Shown here: positions 52,086 to 61,935 of the stretch, piece by piece | Layout of the letters: each line of letters begins with the position of its first letter | Position numbering within the stretch: position 1 is the stretch's first letter | Assembly (NCBI RefSeq): GCF_001423585.1 | Contig: NZ_LMOP01000008.1 | Coordinates: 1,049,323-1,113,322, forward strand | Reading direction: 5' to 3' | Length of the DNA stretch: 64,000 nucleotides | Source: Xanthomonas sp. Leaf148 | Lineage (GTDB): Bacteria > Pseudomonadota > Gammaproteobacteria > Xanthomonadales > Xanthomonadaceae | The notes under the pieces: model-generated | Told to the model about the DNA's origin: nothing | Seen by the model: only the letters and a program-made list of their open reading frames with translations | Databases searched by the model: none | Translations under genes and position numbers: made by a program

Positions 52086-55022
52086 ATGAACAAGCTGCAT
52101 CGCAGTACGCGTCACACCCCGCTGGCCGCCGCGCTGGCCGCTGCACTCACTTTGGTCGCGGCAACTGCCGCAGCGCAGGAAGCCGGCAGCACCGCCGGCG
52201 TCACCGAGTTGGACAAGGTCATGGTCAAGGGCGTGCGCGGTGCGCAGGCCGAGGCCATCGAAAACAAGCGCACCGCCGCACAGATCATCGACTCGATCTC
52301 GGCCGAAGATATCGGCAAGCTGCCCGACGTCACCATCACCGATTCGCTGCAGCGCGTGCCCGGCGTACAGATCCGGCGCTCGGCCGGCGAGGGTTCGCAG
52401 CTCAACATCCGCGGCATGCCGCAGGTGCAGACCACCATGAACGGCGAACTGTATCTGAGCGCCGGTGGTGGCGACCAGTTCGGCCAACCGAATATCGGCC
52501 GCGCCCAACCGGACTTTGTCGACATCCCGCCGACGCTGTTCAGCGGCGTGGATGTAATCAAGTCGCCCACCGCCGCCGATCTGGATGGCGGCATCAGCGG
52601 CACGGTGTCGCTCAAGACACGCCGCCCGTTCGATCTGCCCGAAGGCTGGACCTTCAGCGGCCAGGCCGAAGGGTCCTACGGCGATCGCGTGCAGGAACTC
52701 AACGAGTTGTACTCGGGGCTGGCCAGCTTCCGCACCGAACGCTGGGGTGCGTTGCTGGCGGTGTCGTACTCGGATGCCACGCTGGAAAACAAGCACCCCA
52801 GCGTGTATTCCAACGGCGCGCAAAAATCGACCGAGCAGAACGTAGGCTTCGACTTCAACGGCGACGGCCGCATCGGCAGCAATACCGATCCGTCCAACCT
52901 GCCGCGCGACTATTTCTACAACTGGGTCGCCACCGAACTGGATAACCGCAGCACCGATCGTCAGCGCACCGGCGTCAACGGCTCGTTCCAGTTCAACATC
53001 AACGACTCCTGGACGGTGCTGGCCGATGCGGCCTACACCAAGCTCGAAGACCACGACACGTCGGTGGCCGCGCAGCTGCACACCGGCTGGGCAACCAATC
53101 AGTTGCAGCCGGGATCGGTGGTAGATTCCAATGGCGTGCTCGAGTACGGCCAGTTCCGCTACAACCGCTTCCAGGCGCACTCGATGGCGGGCGTCGCCGA
53201 TTCGGATTCGCTCAATACCAATCTGGAGCTGCGCTTCGATGACGGCGGCCCGTTCCGTGCGTCGTTCCGCTGGGTGCATGGCGATGCGCAGCGGACTTAC
53301 GACGAAGCGCGCGCCGATGCGGTGGTGACACGTGGCGATCAGATCACGCGTGCCGGCGGCGTCACCCAATGGGCGAACGCGAACGGCTTGCCGGTGGTCG
53401 ATGCCTCGGTGGATTTCCGCGGCAGCTACCCGGCGGTCAACCTCGGCACCGATGTGTCCAACCCGGACAACTGGCAGCTGATGTCCACCTGGGCGCAGGG
53501 CAACAAGATCGAAGCCACGATGGATGCATTCCGCGCCGATGGCACCTTCGAGTTCGACGAAGGCGTGGTGCGCGGCTTCCAGTTCGGCATTCGCTACGGC
53601 GAGCGTGAGGTCAAGCTGGACACCTATCGCTACCTGTCGCCGGTGTCGACTACCTGTGCAGACCCCAACCGCTCGCTGTACTACTTCAAGGACCCGCTGA
53701 TTGTCGACACCTGCAGCGGCGTGTCCGAAGCGCGCCTGCTGCCGTTCAATTCGATTCCCGGCTACTGGGCGTACTTCAACGACTTCGATCCGCTCAAGGT
53801 CACCGGCCTGGGCAGCCAAGGCTTGCCGGCGATCAACCCACAGGTCATGAAGGACCCGGTGGCGTATCTCAACAGCCTGTATCCGGGCAACGTGGCCTAT
53901 CAGCAGGCTGCCGATTCGTACAAGGTCACCGAAAAAAGCACCGCGGCGTATTTTCTGGCGAATCTGGAGGGCGGTACCGGCAGTGCAGTGCCGTGGACCG
54001 CGAATATCGGCGCACGCATCGTGCAGACCAAACTCGCCATCGATCAGTATCTGAGCAGCGGCAATGTGTTTATCGGCAATGTCGAATGGAACGGCGTCAG
54101 CCCGGCAATCGGTACCAATCGTCTGAATCGTCAGTACACCGACGTGTTGCCCACCGCCAACCTGTCGCTGGATATCACCGACGCGCAGAAGTTGCGCTTT
54201 GCCTACAACAAGGCGGTGGCGCGTCAGGATCTGCCCGACCTTGGCCGCGGCCTGGTGAGCTTCTACGCCGTCAATGGCACGCCGCCGCGTAACCCGTCGC
54301 TGCCTTCCGATGCGGTGCTTTTCCTCAATGGCCGTTCGGGTAATCCGGACCTGGATCCGTACCGCGCCACCAACTACAACGCGTCGTGGGAATGGTATTT
54401 CTCCGATGCGTCGTTGCTCAGCGTGGGCGCGTTCCTGATCGACGTGAAGTCGTTCCCCACCACGGTGACCAACATCGAACTGTTGCCCGACGCCGATGGC
54501 GTGGCGCGGCTTGGCGGCCCGGTGGAGCGCATCGTCAATGGCGGTGGCGGCAAGATCAAGGGCTTCGAAATCGGCTATCAACAGGCTTTCGATTTTCTGC
54601 CGGGTTGGTTGAGCGGTTTCGGTACCAACATCAACTACACCTTCTCCGATGCAGATACCGACAACACCGATATCGAAGGCAACACGCTTCCGATCGGCGA
54701 CAACTCCAAGCATCAGGCCAACGCGGTGCTGTGGTATCAGAAGGACAAGTTGCAGGCGCGGGTGGCCTACAACTGGCGCAGCAAGCGTTTCAGTCAGGTC
54801 AACAGCGGTGCGTGGGGCGACGAGCTGGCGATCTGGAACGACGATGTCGGCTATCTGGATGCATCCCTCAGCTACGACGTCAACGATCATCTGACGCTGT
54901 ACGCCCAGGCCACCAACCTCACCGGCGAAAGCGAGCGGCGTTACGCGCAGTGGACCAACCACTACTACGATCAAAACATCTTCGAGCGTCGTTACTACGC
55001 AGGTCTGCGTCTGCGCTTTTGA
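52086..55022 (+). CDS. TonB-dependent receptor, carbohydrate-type (Caulobacter-like)
   Basis: 978 aa. Signal peptide ends TAAAQEA; a TonB-box-like stretch (TELDKVMVKGVRGAQ) follows. Plug domain: IGKLPDVTITDSLQRVPGVQIRR, LNIRGMPQVQTTMNGELYLS and VDVIKSPTAADLDGGISGTVSL, the pattern of large receptors in carbohydrate-utilisation loci of Xanthomonas and Caulobacter. The barrel ends correctly with YYAGLRLRF. GGGAGGGG lies just before the ATG. Position after GH97/GH2 and before a GH6 gene suggests import of plant-wall oligosaccharides. A tandem 13-bp duplication follows the stop, then a terminator. Confidence 0.92.
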   Translation: MNKLHRSTRHTPLAAALAAALTLVAATAAAQEAGSTAGVTELDKVMVKGVRGAQAEAIENKRTAAQIIDSISAEDIGKLPDVTITDSLQRVPGVQIRRSAGEGSQLNIRGMPQVQTTMNGELYLSAGGGDQFGQPNIGRAQPDFVDIPPTLFSGVDVIKSPTAADLDGGISGTVSLKTRRPFDLPEGWTFSGQAEGSYGDRVQELNELYSGLASFRTERWGALLAVSYSDATLENKHPSVYSNGAQKSTEQNVGFDFNGDGRIGSNTDPSNLPRDYFYNWVATELDNRSTDRQRTGVNGSFQFNINDSWTVLADAAYTKLEDHDTSVAAQLHTGWATNQLQPGSVVDSNGVLEYGQFRYNRFQAHSMAGVADSDSLNTNLELRFDDGGPFRASFRWVHGDAQRTYDEARADAVVTRGDQITRAGGVTQWANANGLPVVDASVDFRGSYPAVNLGTDVSNPDNWQLMSTWAQGNKIEATMDAFRADGTFEFDEGVVRGFQFGIRYGEREVKLDTYRYLSPVSTTCADPNRSLYYFKDPLIVDTCSGVSEARLLPFNSIPGYWAYFNDFDPLKVTGLGSQGLPAINPQVMKDPVAYLNSLYPGNVAYQQAADSYKVTEKSTAAYFLANLEGGTGSAVPWTANIGARIVQTKLAIDQYLSSGNVFIGNVEWNGVSPAIGTNRLNRQYTDVLPTANLSLDITDAQKLRFAYNKAVARQDLPDLGRGLVSFYAVNGTPPRNPSLPSDAVLFLNGRSGNPDLDPYRATNYNASWEWYFSDASLLSVGAFLIDVKSFPTTVTNIELLPDADGVARLGGPVERIVNGGGGKIKGFEIGYQQAFDFLPGWLSGFGTNINYTFSDADTDNTDIEGNTLPIGDNSKHQANAVLWYQKDKLQARVAYNWRSKRFSQVNSGAWGDELAIWNDDVGYLDASLSYDVNDHLTLYAQATNLTGESERRYAQWTNHYYDQNIFERRYYAGLRLRF

Positions 55023-55045
55023 TGTGATGTCCTGATGTGATGTCC
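55020..55045 (+). repeat. Tandem 13-bp duplication at the TonB receptor stop codon
   Basis: TGATGTGATGTCC is repeated twice in immediate succession; the first unit contains the stop codon. A third, partial unit (CGATGTG) follows. Confidence 0.8.
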
Positions 55046-55188
55046 CGATGTGCGACACGGCGCACCCCCGCGTCGTGTCGCACATGATCTTCTGTTGTCC
55101 CTCTCCAAGCGGTCATTTCGCTTTCTTCCCGTCACCGGCGTGCCGGTGCTGCAAGACGCCCGACGGCAACGTCGAGCACCCTCCCATT

Positions 55189-55226
55189 CGGCTGCATCGT
55201 CGGGAAGCGATGCGGCCGTTTTTTTT
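55189..55226 (+). terminator. Rho-independent terminator of the TonB receptor gene
   Basis: CGGCTGCATCG/CGATGCGGCCG, an 11-bp stem with one G-T pair and an 8-nt loop, followed by eight T. Confidence 0.9.
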
Positions 55227-55728
55227 GTGCGTGATGGCACATACATTTGTGTAGTAATGCCTGCAGTCGAAATATGAGTGCGGGCATTATCTGGATCTGT
55301 GCCCAAACGCAATGTTTGGCGATTGCGTCTATCAGATATGCAGCGTAGTTTCCGCATGGCGAACTCACCACCCCGTTCGCAGGCACAGCATCCCATGCTG
55401 ATCGCTCATTCGCTCCCTGGAGATACTCCGCAAATCACGGAGGCAACTGTCGCAACGAGAATATCGATGCGAGTGCGTTAGCTTCCAACGAATCCGAGGT
55501 CTTAGGTAATGTCTCGGGACACAAGCGAGCCATTGGCTTGAGTGTCTTTGTGTGGACATTACCGACGTCATGCCATGCAAATGCTCTTCGGCGGGACGCC
55601 GACGGAGCGTGTTTGATTGGCTCTAGACATCTCTGATGGGTGCCCTGAAGAGGAACAAAGCAGGCCAAAAAGGCAGTGCTTCATTGATTTTCGAATAAAA
55701 ACCATCCGATAAAAATAAGGTGAATCTC
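55227..55728. other. AT-richer 500-bp region upstream of cbsA
   Basis: No supported gene. Base composition is visibly lower in GC than the rest of the window. It carries a large imperfect inverted repeat (55505-55563) and the cbsA promoter and ribosome binding site (AAGGTGA at 55717-55723). The compositional break suggests that cbsA and its control region were acquired. Confidence 0.5.
55505..55563. repeat. Large inverted repeat upstream of cbsA
   Basis: Outer arms GGTAATGTC (55505-55513) and GACATTACC (55555-55563) are perfect complements. An inner pair, GACACAAGC and GCTTGAGTGTC, can extend the stem with a small bulge. It could be a structured leader, a regulator site or a remnant of a mobile element. 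Confidence 0.55.
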
Positions 55729-57414
55729 ATGAAATCCAGTCAGGGCATCCGTCATAACCTCACGCGCTCGATGGCGTTATCGCTGTTGGCATTAAATCCG
55801 TTATTTGTCGCCAGCGTCTGTGCGCAGGTGCATGTCGACAACCCCTTCGTCGGCGCGAGTGGTTATGTGAATCCCGATTACGCCAAGAAAGTCGATGCAT
55901 CGATTGCGAAGGTGAAGGGCGCACCGCTGAAAGCCAAGATGGGCGTGGTGAAGGCCGTTCCCACCGCAGTCTGGCTGGATCGCATTGCCGCGATTGCCGG
56001 CGGATCGCAGAATGCCGGTCGGCTTGGCTTGAGGGGGCATCTGGATGCCGCATTGGCACAGAAAAAAGCCAACACGCCGATTACTGCCAGCTTTGTCATC
56101 TACGATTTGCCAGGCCGCGATTGTCACGCATTGGCGTCCAACGGCGAATTGCCGCTGACCCCGGCGGCGCTGGAACGCTACAAGAAAGAATATATCGACG
56201 TCATTGCAGCGATCTTTGCGGACCCGAAATACAAGGATATCCGCATCGTCAATGTGATCGAGCCCGATAGCCTGCCCAATCTGGTCACCAACTTGAATGA
56301 CATGCGTTGCGCGCTGGCCAATTCCACGGGAATTTACGAAGAAGGCATCAAGTACGCACTCAATAAGCTGCACGCGGTTCCCAATACCTACAACTACCTG
56401 GATATCGGTCACTCGGGTTGGTTAGGTTGGGATAGCAACCGTGGTCCGTCGATTTCGCTATATACCCGTGTGGTCCAGGGAACGAGCGCCGGGCTGGCAA
56501 GCGTCGACGGCTTTGTCACCAATACCGCCAATACCACGCCATTGAACGAACCCAATTTACCCAATCCGGATTTGAGCGTGAATGGGCAGCCGATCAAGTC
56601 GTCGAAATACTACGAATGGAATCCGTATTTCGACGAGGCCGATTTTACCCAGGCGCTGTACAACGGTTTTGTCGGCGCGGGTTGGCCCAGCACGATCGGT
56701 TTTATCGTCGATACCGGCCGGAATGGCTGGGGCGGTCCGAATCGTCCTGCCAGCGCGTCCGGCAGCGACATCAATACGTACGTCAATACCGGTCGCATCG
56801 ATCGTCGCCTCCATCGCGGCAACTGGTGCAATCAAAGCGGAGCAGGGATCGGGGTGCTCCCCGTCGCAGCGCCTGGGCCGCATCTGGATGCGTATGCGTG
56901 GGTCAAGCCGCCGGGTGAGTCCGATGGCTCCAGTACCCTCATTTCGAATAACGAGGGCAAGGGCTTCGATCGGATGTGCGACCCGACCTACACCACGGCC
57001 GATGGCGTGTTGACCGGCTCACTCGCCGGCGCGCCGATCTCCGGCGCGTGGTTCCATAACCAGTTCGTCGAGCTGGTGAACAACGCCTACCCGGTGATCG
57101 CAACCGCCAGCACCGCGGTGGCTACCTTTGCACCGATCGCGGCGCCGAGCGCAACGCGCGGCCTCACCGCCACCGTCGGCGACAGCCGGGTCAAGCTGAG
57201 CTGGTCGCCGGTGCTGGGAGCAACCAGCTACACGGTGCTGCGTCGCGCAGGTGCCGCGGGTGCGTTCACCACGGTCGGTTCCAATGTTGCAGCGGCCTCG
57301 TATGTCGATCAGTCCGTCGCCAATGGCGCGGACTACGACTACGTGGTCACTGCAAACAGCGCGGCCGGGACCAGTGCGCCATCGGCTGTGGTGCGTGCCA
57401 AGCCGACCAGGTGA
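55729..57414 (+). CDS. cbsA: GH6 cellobiohydrolase with C-terminal fibronectin type III domain
   Basis: 561 aa. Signal peptide ends FVASVCAQ. The GH6 domain has its catalytic features: YDLPGRDCHALAS (acid Asp), VNVIEPDSLPNLVTN, YLDIGHSGWLGWD, WVKPPGESDGSS near the C-terminal loop and CNQSGAG. A FnIII domain covers about residues 470-561 (ATRGLTATVGDSRVKLSWSPV, VANGADYDYVVTANSAAG). This is the architecture of CbsA of X. oryzae/X. campestris, a type-II-secreted exoglucanase acting on cellulose and linked in published comparisons to vascular, as opposed to non-vascular, lifestyle. ATG 55729 has AAGGTGA upstream. Two perfect hairpins follow the stop. Confidence 0.93.
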   Translation: MKSSQGIRHNLTRSMALSLLALNPLFVASVCAQVHVDNPFVGASGYVNPDYAKKVDASIAKVKGAPLKAKMGVVKAVPTAVWLDRIAAIAGGSQNAGRLGLRGHLDAALAQKKANTPITASFVIYDLPGRDCHALASNGELPLTPAALERYKKEYIDVIAAIFADPKYKDIRIVNVIEPDSLPNLVTNLNDMRCALANSTGIYEEGIKYALNKLHAVPNTYNYLDIGHSGWLGWDSNRGPSISLYTRVVQGTSAGLASVDGFVTNTANTTPLNEPNLPNPDLSVNGQPIKSSKYYEWNPYFDEADFTQALYNGFVGAGWPSTIGFIVDTGRNGWGGPNRPASASGSDINTYVNTGRIDRRLHRGNWCNQSGAGIGVLPVAAPGPHLDAYAWVKPPGESDGSSTLISNNEGKGFDRMCDPTYTTADGVLTGSLAGAPISGAWFHNQFVELVNNAYPVIATASTAVATFAPIAAPSATRGLTATVGDSRVKLSWSPVLGATSYTVLRRAGAAGAFTTVGSNVAAASYVDQSVANGADYDYVVTANSAAGTSAPSAVVRAKPTR

Positions 57415-57421
57415 TGTGCGC

Positions 57422-57449
57422 GGTGGACACCGGTACGCCGGTGTCCACC
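57422..57449 (+). terminator. 12-bp hairpin with TACG loop after cbsA
   Basis: GGTGGACACCGG/CCGGTGTCCACC around TACG (a UNCG-type, very stable tetraloop), 8 bp after the stop. No T tract. Confidence 0.6.
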
Positions 57450-57514
57450 CGTCATGGGCGGCACGCGTGGCCGCGATGACACCATCGCTGTGGTGACCTG
57501 ATGATGTGTTGAAC

Positions 57515-57540
57515 CCATGGCGGCCATCTGGCCGCCATGG
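57515..57540 (+). terminator. Second hairpin downstream of cbsA
   Basis: Perfect 11-bp stem CCATGGCGGCC/GGCCGCCATGG with loop ATCT. Followed by TCGTTTGT, a poor T-run. With the first hairpin it probably isolates the precursor-P450 pair from cbsA transcription. Confidence 0.5.
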
Positions 57541-57754
57541 TCGTTTGTGCGAAATGCGAAGTCATGTACGTCAAAGCGTGCAGTGCGGCAATGCGTTGCT
57601 GCAGGGTGAGGAATCTGTGCGCGCACGCAATGTTCTTCCCTGATCTCGGGGCGTAGCTTGGTGTGGCGAGCGTCACCATGGTCGCTCGCGTCACGCTTGA
57701 CCGATTGTGCGAACGCCCATCAGGGCAAACCCCTCCCCAAACAGGATGTCGCTC
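57541..57754. promoter_or_regulatory. Leader and promoter region of the precursor peptide gene
   Basis: 214 bp with no other gene. It contains the dyad GCGAGCG-tcaccatggt-CGCTCGC (57666-57689), whose loop holds ACCATGGT. No clear -35/-10 pair was found; TTGACC at 57697-57702 is the best -35-like hexamer. Confidence 0.35.
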
Positions 57755-57835
57755 ATGAAGATGCTGTTCTCGCTCAAAAACCTGTTGGCTTCCAAGAAAA
57801 GTCTGAAGTCCTACGCTTGGTACATCTGGTACTGA
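57755..57835 (+). CDS. Atropopeptide-type RiPP precursor peptide, core AWYIWY
   Basis: 26 codons. The leader (residues 1-20) is short, Lys-rich and amphipathic, starts MKMLFSLKNLL and ends KKSLKSY; the last six residues are AWYIWY, then the stop. AGGA at 57743-57746 is ideally spaced (8 nt) from ATG 57755. An in-frame ATG at 57746 would overlap that AGGA and is less likely. AWYIWY is the sequence of tryptorubin A from Streptomyces, a hexapeptide crosslinked by a P450 between Trp and Tyr side chains, and KSLK is as I recall a shared leader motif of such precursors. A P450 gene follows 117 bp downstream on the same strand. The gene is too small for normal annotation. Function is inferred from the core, the leader and the partner. 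Confidence 0.88.
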   Translation: MKMLFSLKNLLASKKSLKSYAWYIWY

Positions 57836-57952
57836 GCGCACTGACAAGCGCGGTAAAAGTCGCCGTGTTCTCAGTGTGATGTTGGTCATGCTCGCCCGCG
57901 CGAGGTAAGCGTTTTGCCGGACGCGGGCGTCAACGATAGCAAGGCGATCGTC

Positions 57953-58993
57953 ATGTCTTCAGTCAGTAACGCAGGTTTGGACAGGACGACCGTGTTCGCG
58001 CCGCGGTTGCTGGCGCTGCTGCGTGAGCACATGGGCAAGGAGGTATTTCGGCTGGATGGGGATACCGTCGGTGTTGCCGGGCCGCTGTTGACGCATCGGT
58101 TGCTGGCTGCACGTCTGGCAACAGAAGGTGAGCGGCCAACCTTCAAGCCGCTGCAAGGGCATTCGATCGCACGCACGCATGCCTCCAAACTGATGCAGGC
58201 AATCGGGCGCGATGTGCGCGAGGCGTTGAAGCGCCCCATTAGCGCAGACGTGGATCTGTCCGGCCCATGGCCGCATGTTGGGCACGTGTATCTGCGCGAT
58301 CTGCTGTTGGGTGGCGACCCGCTGCGCCTGCGTCTGTTGATGGACCGCACCCTGGAGCTGACACCCAAGTTGACCTGGGCGCTTATCGCGGCAAGCGCAA
58401 TCAGGCCGCTCACGCTGCAGGCCAACGCGTCGGCGCTTGCGACAGTGACTGCGGCCGCAGACGGCTACGATGCGCGCCGCTTCGCCATGGGCTTGTATCG
58501 ACGAACCGCCGCGCCGGTGTGCTTCACCATTTCCACCTTGGTCGCCAACGCACTGTGGCTGGGATCGCCATTCGATCCTGCCAGTTCCAGCCGAAATATC
58601 ATCTACGAATCGCTGCGTCTGTTGCCGCCCTCCTGGAACATCTTGCGCAACGCATCGCCGGAATATCCGCTGCTCGATCCCCGCATCGGTGTGCAGGACG
58701 ATGTGTTGGTATTGCCACTCCTAAGCCACCGCGATCCTGCGCTGTGGGATGCACCCGATGAATTTCGTCCGGAGCGCTGGGATCAGCTGGATCCCGATCA
58801 TCAGCCCGGCTATCTCCCGTTCGGGCACGCGTCGGAGCGCTGTTGGGGCAGGCACATGGTGATGCCGCTGGCCGAGCAGTTATTGGACAGCGTCCGCCGT
58901 CAGGGATTGGCTGTCAGCCCACGGCAGCGCCAGGCGCAGGTGCCGTTGGCGGGGCTGCTCGGTGTGTCTGAGGTCGATGTCGTGCGTTGCTAG
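57953..58993 (+). CDS. Cytochrome P450, probable crosslinking enzyme for the AWYIWY peptide
   Basis: 346 aa, shorter than usual bacterial P450s (about 400). K-helix ExxR is present as YESLRLLPPSW (E219, R222), then FRPERWD (the PERF-like segment), and the heme loop LPFGHASERCWGRHMVM with Cys297. The loop departs from FxxGxRxCxG: Ala for the first Gly, Arg shifted by one. The I-helix segment (RTAAPVCFTISTLVANAL) lacks the usual acid-alcohol pair. ATG 57953 has AAGG upstream; an in-frame TTG at 57914 is possible. No ferredoxin gene is adjacent. By position it should act on the peptide coded just upstream, forming aromatic C-C or C-N links. Confidence 0.87.
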   Translation: MSSVSNAGLDRTTVFAPRLLALLREHMGKEVFRLDGDTVGVAGPLLTHRLLAARLATEGERPTFKPLQGHSIARTHASKLMQAIGRDVREALKRPISADVDLSGPWPHVGHVYLRDLLLGGDPLRLRLLMDRTLELTPKLTWALIAASAIRPLTLQANASALATVTAAADGYDARRFAMGLYRRTAAPVCFTISTLVANALWLGSPFDPASSSRNIIYESLRLLPPSWNILRNASPEYPLLDPRIGVQDDVLVLPLLSHRDPALWDAPDEFRPERWDQLDPDHQPGYLPFGHASERCWGRHMVMPLAEQLLDSVRRQGLAVSPRQRQAQVPLAGLLGVSEVDVVRC

Positions 58994-59156
58994 CGTTACG
59001 CAACTCGCTTGCTTGCCTGCGTGCACGCCGCAGCGAGCGCATTGCAGCGGCACGGTTCAGAGACCCGAAAGGTGCTGCCGATAGCGCGAACAGGCACACG
59101 CCACGCTTGCAGCATCCAGCGTCAGCCAAACCGCTCCGGGTTCGCGCGTCAGCGTG

Positions 59157-60209
59157 TCATTCCCGGGGTGGCCCAGCCGTCGAGCCGCGCTTGACCAGGG
59201 TGTACTTCATCACCTGATGCACGCCCTGCGCGGCATCGCCCTTGCGCCGCTGACGAATCGCATCTGCAAGCAAGGACACTGCTGCGCGTCCCATCGCGGT
59301 CACCGGTTGATGCACGGTGGTGAGTTCTGGCCAGATGGTGGTTGCCACCGGCGTGTCGTCGAAACCGGCCACCGAAACATCTTCCGGTACACGCAAGCCC
59401 AGTCCATGCGCGACCGCAACCGCGGCAGCCGCCATGTCGTCGTTGCTGCAGAAAATCGCCGTCGGTGGTTTGGGGTGTGCCAGCAGGCTGCGCGCGGCGA
59501 GCAATCCCGAGTGATAAGTAAACAATCCGTCGGCGATCAGGGTCTCTGTAATCTCCAATCCTGCTGCCTGCAAACTGTCGAGATAGCCGTTGGCGCGCAG
59601 CGCGCTTGGTATGTGTTTGGGGTCGCCCTTGATCAGCGCGATGCGGCGGTGCCCAAGTTCGATCAGATGCGCGACGATGGCGCGCGCGGCCTGATAGTCA
59701 TCGATGCGCACCGAGCTGATTTGCGCCATCGGCGCGCCGCTGGCTACCGCCACTACCGGGATGCCGCGTGCATCCAGTTCGCTGATGGTCTGACGCGAAT
59801 CGCACAACGGTGGCGGCAGGATCACGCCGTCAACGCCGGCCGCGAGCAAACGCTCGGTCGCTGCGCGCTGGCTACGGATGGCGCCGCATTTTTCCACCAG
59901 CACCTGGCTGCCATTGAGACTGCTTTGCTCCAGCAGCCCGAGCATGAATTGATTGAGATACGCGGCGCTGGGGTTGCTGTACAGCACGCCGATACGCAAC
60001 AGCCCGCTGGTGCGCAGCGAGCGGCCGGCAAGATTGGGCCGGTAGCCCAAGGCCTGCACTGAAGCTTCCACGCGCACCCGCATGTCCTGCCCGACATGCG
60101 GGTGCCGGTTGATGACGCGTGAGGCAGTCATCGGCGAGACGCCGGCATGTTTGGCGACATCCAGTAACGTCGCCGCGGTGTTCGCACTAAGTTGCCGCTT
60201 GACCGCCAT
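59157..60209 (-). CDS. LacI-family transcriptional regulator
   Basis: 350 aa. N-terminal HTH ATLLDVAKHAGVSPMTASRVINRHPHVGQ with the usual hinge (LGYRPNLAGRSLRTSG), then a periplasmic-binding-like sensor domain with IGVLYSNPSAAYLNQFMLGLLEQS, GVILPPPLCDS, RIDDYQAARAIVAHLIELGHRRIALI and FCSNDDMAAAAVAVAHGLGLRVPEDVSVAGFDDTP (seen from about 265 to 300). It probably responds to a sugar. ATG 60209 is chosen because the HTH then lies at the normal distance; an upstream ATG would add 12 unlike residues. It faces the P450 gene and is the likely regulator of the nearby carbohydrate genes; control of the peptide locus is possible but unsupported. Confidence 0.92.
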   Translation of the reverse strand: MAVKRQLSANTAATLLDVAKHAGVSPMTASRVINRHPHVGQDMRVRVEASVQALGYRPNLAGRSLRTSGLLRIGVLYSNPSAAYLNQFMLGLLEQSSLNGSQVLVEKCGAIRSQRAATERLLAAGVDGVILPPPLCDSRQTISELDARGIPVVAVASGAPMAQISSVRIDDYQAARAIVAHLIELGHRRIALIKGDPKHIPSALRANGYLDSLQAAGLEITETLIADGLFTYHSGLLAARSLLAHPKPPTAIFCSNDDMAAAAVAVAHGLGLRVPEDVSVAGFDDTPVATTIWPELTTVHQPVTAMGRAAVSLLADAIRQRRKGDAAQGVHQVMKYTLVKRGSTAGPPRE

Positions 60210-60239
60210 CGTGTGTGCTCGTCCTGGAGTAAGAGCAGC

Positions 60240-60385
60240 TAACAAAAGGACTGCGCGGCCACCAGGCGGGCGCGGCCGGTGCTCGGTACGGCATGTACCA
60301 ACTTGTACACACCGGTTCCTCCGCGCCGCCCACCCCCATCTGACGACCGCTCGCTACGTTTTTGCTAGCCGCTTTAAAAAACGCG
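60240..60385 (+). repeat. Dispersed intergenic repeat, copy C
   Basis: Blocks GGACTGCGCGGCCACCAGGC, GTGCTCGGTACGGCATGT, ACACACCGGTTCC, CCGCCCACCCCCATCTGACG and GCTAGCCGCTTTAAAAAACG correspond to copies A and B in the same order. It lies between the LacI gene promoter and the 3' end of the peptidase gene. Confidence 0.7.
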
Positions 60386-60407
60386 TTCGCAGCGCTGCGT
60401 TGCCAGA

Positions 60408-61826
60408 CTACTCGTTCGGCGGTTGCACAACTTTCGCGCGGCTGCCGAAATCGCCATCGGCTTCGGCCGCCAGATACGCAAACACGGTGTAGGCGGCGAC
60501 ATTCTGCGCGAGCGCCTTCGGGTCGATCTTGTCCAGCGTGTCGTCGGCGGTGTGGTGCAGGTCGAAGTAGTCGGTGCCGTCCTGCGCCAGCCATGCCCAC
60601 GCGCCACCCTTGGCAGAAATCGGGCCGACGTCCGGGCCGGGGCCGCCCTTGCTCGGCTCATACGCGATGCCGAGCGGTGCCAGCACCTCGGCAATCTGCT
60701 TGGTTGCTGCGCGCGACGCTTCCGGCGCAGCCGAGCCGGTGTTGAATGCATAGATGCGCCCGGCACCGAAGTCGCTCTCCGCGCCGATCTGATGCAGCGC
60801 CATGTCCTTGGCATTCTTGCCGTGCGCGGCCGCATAAGCCTTGCCGCCGTAAAGCCCTTGTTCTTCGTTGGCGAACGCCACCACGCGGATGCTGCGCTTG
60901 GGCGCCTGCTTGAGCTGCCCGATCAGATGCCCGGCGGCTATGGTGATGGCCACGCCGGCGCCATCGTCGATCGCACCGGTGCCCAGATCCCAGGAATCCA
61001 GATGCCCGCCGATCACCACCACTTCTTTGGGCTTGCTGCGCCCGGTGATCTCGCCGATCACGTTGTACGAGGTCGCGGTGCCGTTCCAACCGCAATCCAG
61101 CGCCAGCCGGATACGTGTGGTGCCCAACGCGGCAAGACGTGCCAGCTGGTTGGCATCGGGTACCGACAAGGCGGCGGCGGGTACCGGCGTCAGGCCCTCA
61201 TCGAACCGGGTGATGCCGGTATGCGGCACGCGATGCGAATCGGTGCCGGCCGAGCGCATCACAAAGCCAATCGCGCCCTTGCGAATCGCTTCGGACGGGC
61301 CCTTGCTGCGCACCGCGCCGCCATTGCCGTAGTCCTTGCCATCGCGGGCCTTGACCATCTGGTAATCGACAAACGCGATCTTGCCGGTCAGCGATCCTGC
61401 AGGCGCTGCCTGCAGCGCGGCCAGGGTGTCGAAGCGCACTACCTCACCTTCGACGCTGCCACCCGGGCTGCCGCCCAATGCGGTGATGGTCAACGGTTGC
61501 GCGTGTGCACCCAGCACCGCAGCGTGTTCGCTACGACGTTCCCACTTGGGAAAGGTCACCGGCTCGGTCCACACCTTGTCGAAGCCCAGCGACTGGAATT
61601 TGGCTTTGGCCCACGCCACCGCGCGCGGATCGGCGTCGCCACCGGCAATGCGCGGACCCACTTCGGTGGTGAGCGATTCCACCACTGCAAAGCCGGTGGT
61701 GTCGGCCAGGGCCTGCTCGCGCAACTGCGCAGCGGTGCGCAGCGCGCTGTCGGCAAGGGTGGTCTGTGCGGCAAGCGCGGGGGAACAGGCGAGCAGGGCG
61801 GAGATGGCAACAGCGAGGCGACGCAT
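60408..61826 (-). CDS. M28-family zinc metallopeptidase, exported
   Basis: 472 aa with a signal peptide (MRRLAVAISALLACSPALAA). A PA domain is inserted in the N-terminal half (GKIAFVDYQMVKARDGKDYG, AIRKGAIGFVMRS). The M28 zinc site is complete: GGHLDSWDLGTGAIDDGAGVAIT (His and bridging Asp), ANEEQGLYGGKAY (Glu base and ligand), ESDFGAGRI (Asp) and the final His in DLHHTADDTLDKI. It is an aminopeptidase or carboxypeptidase Q-like enzyme in the periplasm or outside. GGAG lies 8 nt before the ATG. Single gene. Confidence 0.93.
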   Translation of the reverse strand: MRRLAVAISALLACSPALAAQTTLADSALRTAAQLREQALADTTGFAVVESLTTEVGPRIAGGDADPRAVAWAKAKFQSLGFDKVWTEPVTFPKWERRSEHAAVLGAHAQPLTITALGGSPGGSVEGEVVRFDTLAALQAAPAGSLTGKIAFVDYQMVKARDGKDYGNGGAVRSKGPSEAIRKGAIGFVMRSAGTDSHRVPHTGITRFDEGLTPVPAAALSVPDANQLARLAALGTTRIRLALDCGWNGTATSYNVIGEITGRSKPKEVVVIGGHLDSWDLGTGAIDDGAGVAITIAAGHLIGQLKQAPKRSIRVVAFANEEQGLYGGKAYAAAHGKNAKDMALHQIGAESDFGAGRIYAFNTGSAAPEASRAATKQIAEVLAPLGIAYEPSKGGPGPDVGPISAKGGAWAWLAQDGTDYFDLHHTADDTLDKIDPKALAQNVAAYTVFAYLAAEADGDFGSRAKVVQPPNE

Positions 61827-61935
61827 GCAGGGCGGCTCCAACGACAAGGGGGACCCCGAGCTTATCAGCGGCAGGTCCCCCGTCGGCGTGCGAAAAGTCA
61901 TCCTTGTGCGCGAAGCGCACGGTGGATGTGTCCGC

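Follow-up and report, generated by a model that had tools for sequence, protein, structure and literature searches.

Tryptorubin A is the hexapeptide AWYIWY. The biarylitides and cittilins, described as ribosomal peptides cross-linked by P450s and resembling the system studied here in that respect, are set apart by other precursors and core motifs. In PMC11450843, atropopeptides are defined by a leader with KSLK or a close motif, Trp at core position 2 and a class-defining P450 nearby; the bitryptide subfamily has an xWxxWx core, with a second Trp at core position 5. The same paper proposed the KSLK motif as an anchor for P450 recognition and contains putative Xanthomonas loci, which have thus been in print since 2024. 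The main text of PMC12352619 states that no atropopeptide has been reported from Pseudomonadota and describes the modification of 5 out of 7 Pseudomonadota precursors by the Streptomyces P450 ScaB. Among the matches listed for the atropopeptide literature since 2022, no title concerned a natural product from Pseudomonadota. Xanthomonas gene sets are therefore already known; the missing piece is a natural product from this phylum. An earlier note on the DNA analysed here had presented its locus as a new proteobacterial member, a novelty that the loci in PMC11450843 had already taken.

We analysed a stretch of 64,000 nucleotides from Xanthomonas sp. Leaf148 (hereafter, the window). Its locus shares with the atropopeptide loci of PMC11450843 and PMC12352619 a KSLK leader, a core with Trp at position 2 and a precursor gene followed by a family P450 gene. 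It differs in that its P450 belongs to a proteobacterial clade and in a predicted stem-loop in the gap between the two genes, which the main texts of both papers leave unmentioned (word search). The gene pair and its motifs are as follows:

57743..57746, + strand: AGGA ribosome-binding site, 8 nt 5' of ATG 57755 (sequence)
57755..57835, + strand: atropopeptide precursor gene, 26 codons, MKMLFSLKNLLASKKSLKSYAWYIWY (NCBIfam NF038372; start chosen by alignment)
57797..57808, + strand: KSLK motif of the leader, a putative anchor for P450 recognition (sequence; role proposed in PMC11450843)
57815..57832, + strand: AWYIWY core, with Trp in position 2 (sequence)
57953..58993, + strand: atropopeptide macrocyclase-family cytochrome P450, 346 aa (Pfam p450; homologue alignment)
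58607..58618, + strand: ExxR motif (E219, R222), with neither residue varying among 30 aligned homologues
58841..58843, + strand: heme-ligand cysteine C297 (FGHASERCWGRH), invariant in 30 aligned homologues

The sequence reads as the earlier note had described it: a 26-codon gene with a ribosome-binding site, a KSLK leader and AWYIWY directly before the stop codon (TGA, 57833-57835), then a P450 gene on the same strand. The start given for the 26-codon gene, 57746, needed correction; this is an in-frame upstream ATG that gives a longer, 29-codon version (MSLMKMLFSLKNLLASKKSLKSYAWYIWY, adding MSL). ATG 57755 is the better start, because the upstream ATG is absent from two relatives (G032 and G024) that nevertheless keep MKMLFS.... 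The AGGA site was kept in 10 out of 11 aligned genomes and was missing from G025. Further 5', at 57616-57629, we noted a block, TGTGCGCGCACGCA, that has a similar counterpart in most aligned relatives, among them G033 and G008, whose GH6 gene is elsewhere, with G025 again excepted; it is a possible regulatory site.

The window precursor scored 51.7 bits against the NCBIfam profile NF038372 ('tryptorubin family RiPP precursor'; cut-off 33). This match and the KSLK motif agree with the leader part of the atropopeptide definition in PMC11450843, and AWYIWY has both the Trp at core position 2 and the second Trp, at core position 5, of a bitryptide. The adjacent P450 is of the class-defining type, judged by homology along its length. 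Its frame runs from ATG 57953 to the stop codon at 58991-58993, 117 nt downstream of the precursor gene, with TTG 57914 as a possible earlier start. The motif alignment comprised 30 rows (the window and 29 homologues). We rejected the idea of a truncated P450, as homologues are about the same length and the window enzyme has the full length of the family. Its GC content was 63.4%, against 64.8% for the window. The gene pair encodes neither a redox partner nor a leader peptidase.

The window P450 was 66% identical to a homologue in S. clavuligerus and 62% to one in Embleya, both of which also follow a KSLK precursor; these two plasmid loci have precursors ending in AWYIWW and TWFIWYS, respectively. 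The jum cluster of S. jumonjinensis (amyxirubin B), too, has a precursor followed by a P450, here 68% identical, but its precursor ends in AWYIWW where the window has AWYIWY. The best NCBIfam P450 match was the aminopyruvatide P450 ApyO (NF050147), likewise a RiPP cross-linking P450, at 66 bits over residues 211-314; this is far under the 525-bit cut-off, and ApyO joins two Tyr residues in a YLY motif. In a search of solved structures, the best match (E 3e-9) covered the same residues, 211-314.

To survey the family, we scanned genome contigs with a three-sequence P450 alignment, which confirmed at least 86 relatives, of which 80 were kept. The matches listed came from Xanthomonas, Dyella, Luteibacter, Burkholderia, Paraburkholderia, Collimonas, many Streptomycetaceae and one Kutzneria, and those outside Xanthomonas were 59-75% identical to the window P450. 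The kept relatives include S. jumonjinensis, on the contig bearing the jum cluster that was expressed in PMC11450843. In an order-level sample of 398 genomes, the P450 was found at E 1e-60 in 17, belonging to 4 out of 98 genera. A KSLK-type precursor lay 5' of the P450 in 76 of the 80 kept relatives, as judged by sequence pattern; the pattern search found no upstream precursor at the other four loci (L081, L086, L094 and L097). The last six residues at the 76 precursor loci were AWYIWY in 23, AWYLWY in 18 and AWYFWY in 15, so the window core is the commonest form within the kept set, and Trp was second of the six in 73 out of 76. At one locus, that of Xanthomonas sp. GPE 39, two tandem precursor-like frames precede the P450, with the endings AWEGYISY and SWPHWY.

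Such a short gene could be a chance open reading frame, with the P450 acting on some other substrate, and the general Pfam p450 model matches just a 90-residue C-terminal stretch of the enzyme (E 7e-14). We rejected this idea and regard it as practically dismissed on three grounds: the NF038372 match, the co-occurrence of precursor and P450 at 76 out of 80 loci, and precursor pN lower than pS in 10 out of 10 comparisons. The profile also had no match in 14 control genomes. Thus, two claims of the earlier note held, namely that frame and P450 occur together beyond chance and that this is a tryptorubin-like (atropopeptide) RiPP locus in a Xanthomonas, the latter on the profile score, the family P450 and the 76 loci.

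For the window locus, the DNA itself shows the gene pair with intact motifs, its family membership by sequence, purifying selection on it, its synteny and a predicted stem-loop. Taken whole, the best explanation is a minimal two-gene atropopeptide locus, which we hold with high confidence. A 26-residue precursor would be produced, and by analogy with characterised relatives its KSLK leader would dock on the P450, which would oxidatively cross-link aromatic residues of the AWYIWY core through their side chains, joining Trp2 to Trp5 at a minimum and possibly adding more bonds. The leader would then be removed by a peptidase encoded elsewhere.

The earlier note had gone on to name tryptorubin A, or an isomer or variant of it, as the product. 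Tryptorubin A itself would require three bonds in AWYIWY. Calculated from the WYIWY value in PMC12352619, the linear hexapeptide would have an [M+H]+ of about 901.424, and forms with one, two or three bonds would have about 899.409, 897.393 and 895.377. The window core is that hexapeptide, and 23 out of 76 loci share the ending. Yet a core leaves the product open, as LauA (core WYIWY) illustrates: with ScaB it gave monocyclic products (PMC12352619), whereas in its own cluster, with two P450s, it gives laurentirubin B, with four modifications (PMC11450843). Because LauA products vary with P450 context, the core does not imply tryptorubin A. Moreover, the window P450 falls in a proteobacterial clade that has no known natural product according to PMC12352619. 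The main texts of PMC11450843 and PMC12352619 do not contain the string AWYIWY for tryptorubin A. We consider tryptorubin A a doubtful assignment for a locus that otherwise reads as an atropopeptide pair.

The gene pair is under purifying selection. The P450 gave dN/dS values of 0.10-0.16 between the window and seven intact Xanthomonas relatives. In the 10 comparisons of the window precursor with those of genus relatives, pN ranged from 0 to 0.27 and pS from 0.26 to 0.65. Highest in pN were G033 and G008, the 2 out of 10 relatives with differing cores (SWGLYM and AWSNYM).

In our genus set of 35 genomes, the precursor was present in 11 and the P450 in 12, once as a fragment and once in two pieces. 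The precursor was thus found in 10 genomes besides the window strain, with 9 out of 10 exceeding the NF038372 cut-off; a match in G020 (E 0.84) was discarded, as this genome has neither the P450 nor a profile match. The earlier note had staked its reading on P450-bearing relatives also having the small frame, and in the genus set they do: all 11 genomes in which the P450 match reaches from the N-terminal region to the C-terminus (that of G008 in two pieces) have a precursor. In the remaining genome with a P450 match (G015, X. dyei; also L097/L131), a deletion corresponding to window positions 57657 to 58391 took away the precursor along with roughly 146 residues from the start of the P450. At E 1e-20, the P450 had no match in 23 out of 35 genomes, one of which (G031; L158) retains a remnant of about 126 bp of the P450 3' end. 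Three pair-bearing genomes (G014, G024 and G008) have a damaged P450. These damaged copies and the 23 genomes without a match indicate that the trait is dispensable.

The damaged copies, the remnants in G015 and G031, and the many genomes without a match could mean that the window locus, too, is a decaying relic whose product is no longer made in this strain. Both window genes are open, however, the P450 retains the family-invariant residues, and its dN/dS against intact relatives is low, as given above. Decay in the window strain is hence improbable.

The chromosomal site allowed us to trace this history. The flanking genes, which lie outside the system, are the following:

55720..57414, + strand: GH6 cellobiohydrolase, CbsA-like (Pfam GH6, E 1e-101)
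59157..60245, - strand: LacI-family regulator (Pfam)
60408..61901, - strand: M28 peptidase (Pfam)

A LacI gene adjoined the pair in all 11 genus genomes that carry it (11 out of 11), which marks one shared site. In three Xanthomonas strains beyond the genus set (F10, NCPPB 1128 and GPE39), the P450 likewise adjoins LacI, in two of the three with M28 as well. Across Xanthomonas, the same site occurs intact, partly deleted or empty; in G005, G010, G013, G018 and G026, the pair is absent and just 270-390 bp or so separate GH6 from LacI. X. dyei was the closest named relative compared at the locus (GH6 97%, LacI 98%).

At the thresholds used, GH6 was matched in 21 out of 35 genus genomes (E 1e-80), LacI in 30 (E 1e-100) and M28 in 32 (E 1e-120), the last whether or not the pair was present. 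According to PMC11450843, proteases are often encoded close to atropopeptide P450s in Xanthomonas and may take part in removing the leader. M28 and LacI are far more widespread than the pair, so a genus-wide neighbourhood explains the proximity of M28; its position gives no support to a dedicated leader peptidase, and it could still be the enzyme used. A neighbouring peptidase should not be called the leader peptidase from position alone. cbsA has been repeatedly gained and lost in vascular pathogens (PMC7673761). Joint travel of the pair with GH6 is unsupported, because GH6 lies on another contig in the pair-bearing genomes G008 and G033, and in G025, which also carries the pair, GH6 had no match. 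We also noted a terminator-like inverted repeat with 11-bp arms 3' of the GH6 gene (57515-57540; simple scan) and, in the interval separating LacI from M28 (60293-60370, + strand), the Xanthomonas small RNA sX9 (Rfam RF02228, 72.7 bits).

We then compared the P450s in a tree of 80 rows, made by a quick search with midpoint rooting and no bootstrap. The 17 Pseudomonadota rows formed one clade (SH-aLRT 99), as did the 10 Xanthomonas rows (SH-aLRT 99), and under midpoint rooting the Pseudomonadota clade nested inside Actinomycetota; Kutzneria, GPE39 and one Streptacidiphilus had long branches. We infer that the pair entered Pseudomonadota once or a few times, in a tree whose rows are only the matches listed and which may therefore miss other transfers. 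PMC11450843 inferred transfers in both directions, for two clades, from GC content.

Across nine relatives, P450 dS tracked LacI dS (Spearman 0.95), ranging from 0.10 (X. dyei) to 1.53 (GPE39). This relation and a site common to relatives leave a recent transfer into the window strain alone unsupported. The ratio of P450 dN to LacI dN was 1.3 to 4.2 within the genus set and 0.7 to 1.0 against F10, NCPPB 1128 and GPE39, which may reflect rates that were uneven or exchange among lineages of Xanthomonas. The data are best matched by an early gain of the pair, inheritance that was mostly vertical and repeated loss, possibly with such exchange; the pair probably sat beside LacI before the examined Xanthomonas lineages split and was then lost repeatedly.

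Further analysis concerned the 117-nt gap between the two genes (57836-57952), which folds at -52.8 kcal/mol (z -3.11) and contains two predicted elements:

57837..57878, + strand: predicted stem-loop 1 (minimum-energy gap fold; 72.0% of cells pair in 9 Xanthomonas rows)
57893..57929, + strand: predicted stem-loop 2, nearer the P450 and the better conserved of the two (pairing possible in 96.6% of cells)

The exact form of stem-loop 1 is uncertain, since only 72.0% of cells pair as written; both sides had changed in 4 out of 16 pairs across the 9 Xanthomonas rows. The pairing of stem-loop 2 was computed from 9 out of 11 genus loci, with G007 and G025 left unaligned. It showed a two-sided change in 1 out of 13 pairs, with a covariation score equalled by 47 out of 500 shuffles, and the minimum-energy gap fold of G033 differs from it in form.

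Family-wide, all 78 gaps (76 from named loci and two from plasmids, with the window counted apart) had a mean z of -3.06, with 58 under -2; the 74 gaps of at least 60 nt had a mean of -3.31, again with 58 under -2. The four shorter gaps were divided (L079, z -4.07; L037, L089 and L091, positive z), and five others lay above -1.1 (L031, L032, L033, L049 and L104). By contrast, 76 other co-directional gaps of the same loci had a mean z of -0.89 (14 under -2) and 78 stretches lying 5' of the precursor a mean of -0.78 (11 under -2), in controls whose genes were called by a simple rule and among related loci that are not independent. When gaps were grouped by sequence similarity, the mean z was under -2 in 12 out of 14 groups, the exceptions being the main group from Xanthomonas (-1.54 over 6 loci) and L051 (-1.28).

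Two Streptomyces gap alignments, covering 11 out of 12 and 12 out of 16 loci of hand-picked groups, showed two-sided changes in 7 out of 23 and 5 out of 17 pairs, respectively. The covariation score exceeded all 500 shuffles in both, for structures derived from the same alignments, a bias in their favour; for the first, 245 out of 500 shuffles had at least as many pair types. Support for the predicted stem-loop is thus good in Streptomyces but only moderate in Xanthomonas. It seems to be a previously undescribed conserved RNA element. An Rfam search of 55000-61000 with E up to 1 found sX9 only and no known RNA family in the gap.

As our own inference, the stem-loop may act as a dosage element, holding precursor output above that of the P450 through partial termination or protection of the upstream message. 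A literature search on read-through stem-loops in lantibiotics found nothing, and one on stem-loops in operons for RiPPs listed one paper. The hairpin could instead have no part in dosage and be a DNA inverted repeat, or simply the terminator of a precursor gene that is transcribed separately. Terminators are hairpins as well, and a simple scan of the gap found neither a U-tract terminator nor a promoter-like site. Frequent U-G wobble pairs in the covarying Streptomyces stem fit RNA better than DNA, and family gaps differ from the control gaps of the same loci; we thus judge a hairpin without dosage role to be unlikely, if worth keeping in mind. We lean slightly towards a broader reading, in which atropopeptide operons of two phyla share a selected gap RNA stem-loop, its fold kept while its sequence changes, that would set precursor above enzyme output, and in which Xanthomonas, with an actinomycete-like pathway at one site since before the examined lineages split, would make its own, still unisolated atropopeptides.

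The window locus is a real atropopeptide locus, ordinary in kind, whose history is informative when genomes are compared. Because the site is fixed and occurs intact, partly deleted or empty, the trait can be traced through the genus. The locus is also well suited to testing cleanly whether atropopeptides are made by a P450 from Pseudomonadota, as its core is directly comparable with actinomycete products. If real, the stem-loop would bear on how tiny operons balance substrate against enzyme and would be relevant to heterologous expression.
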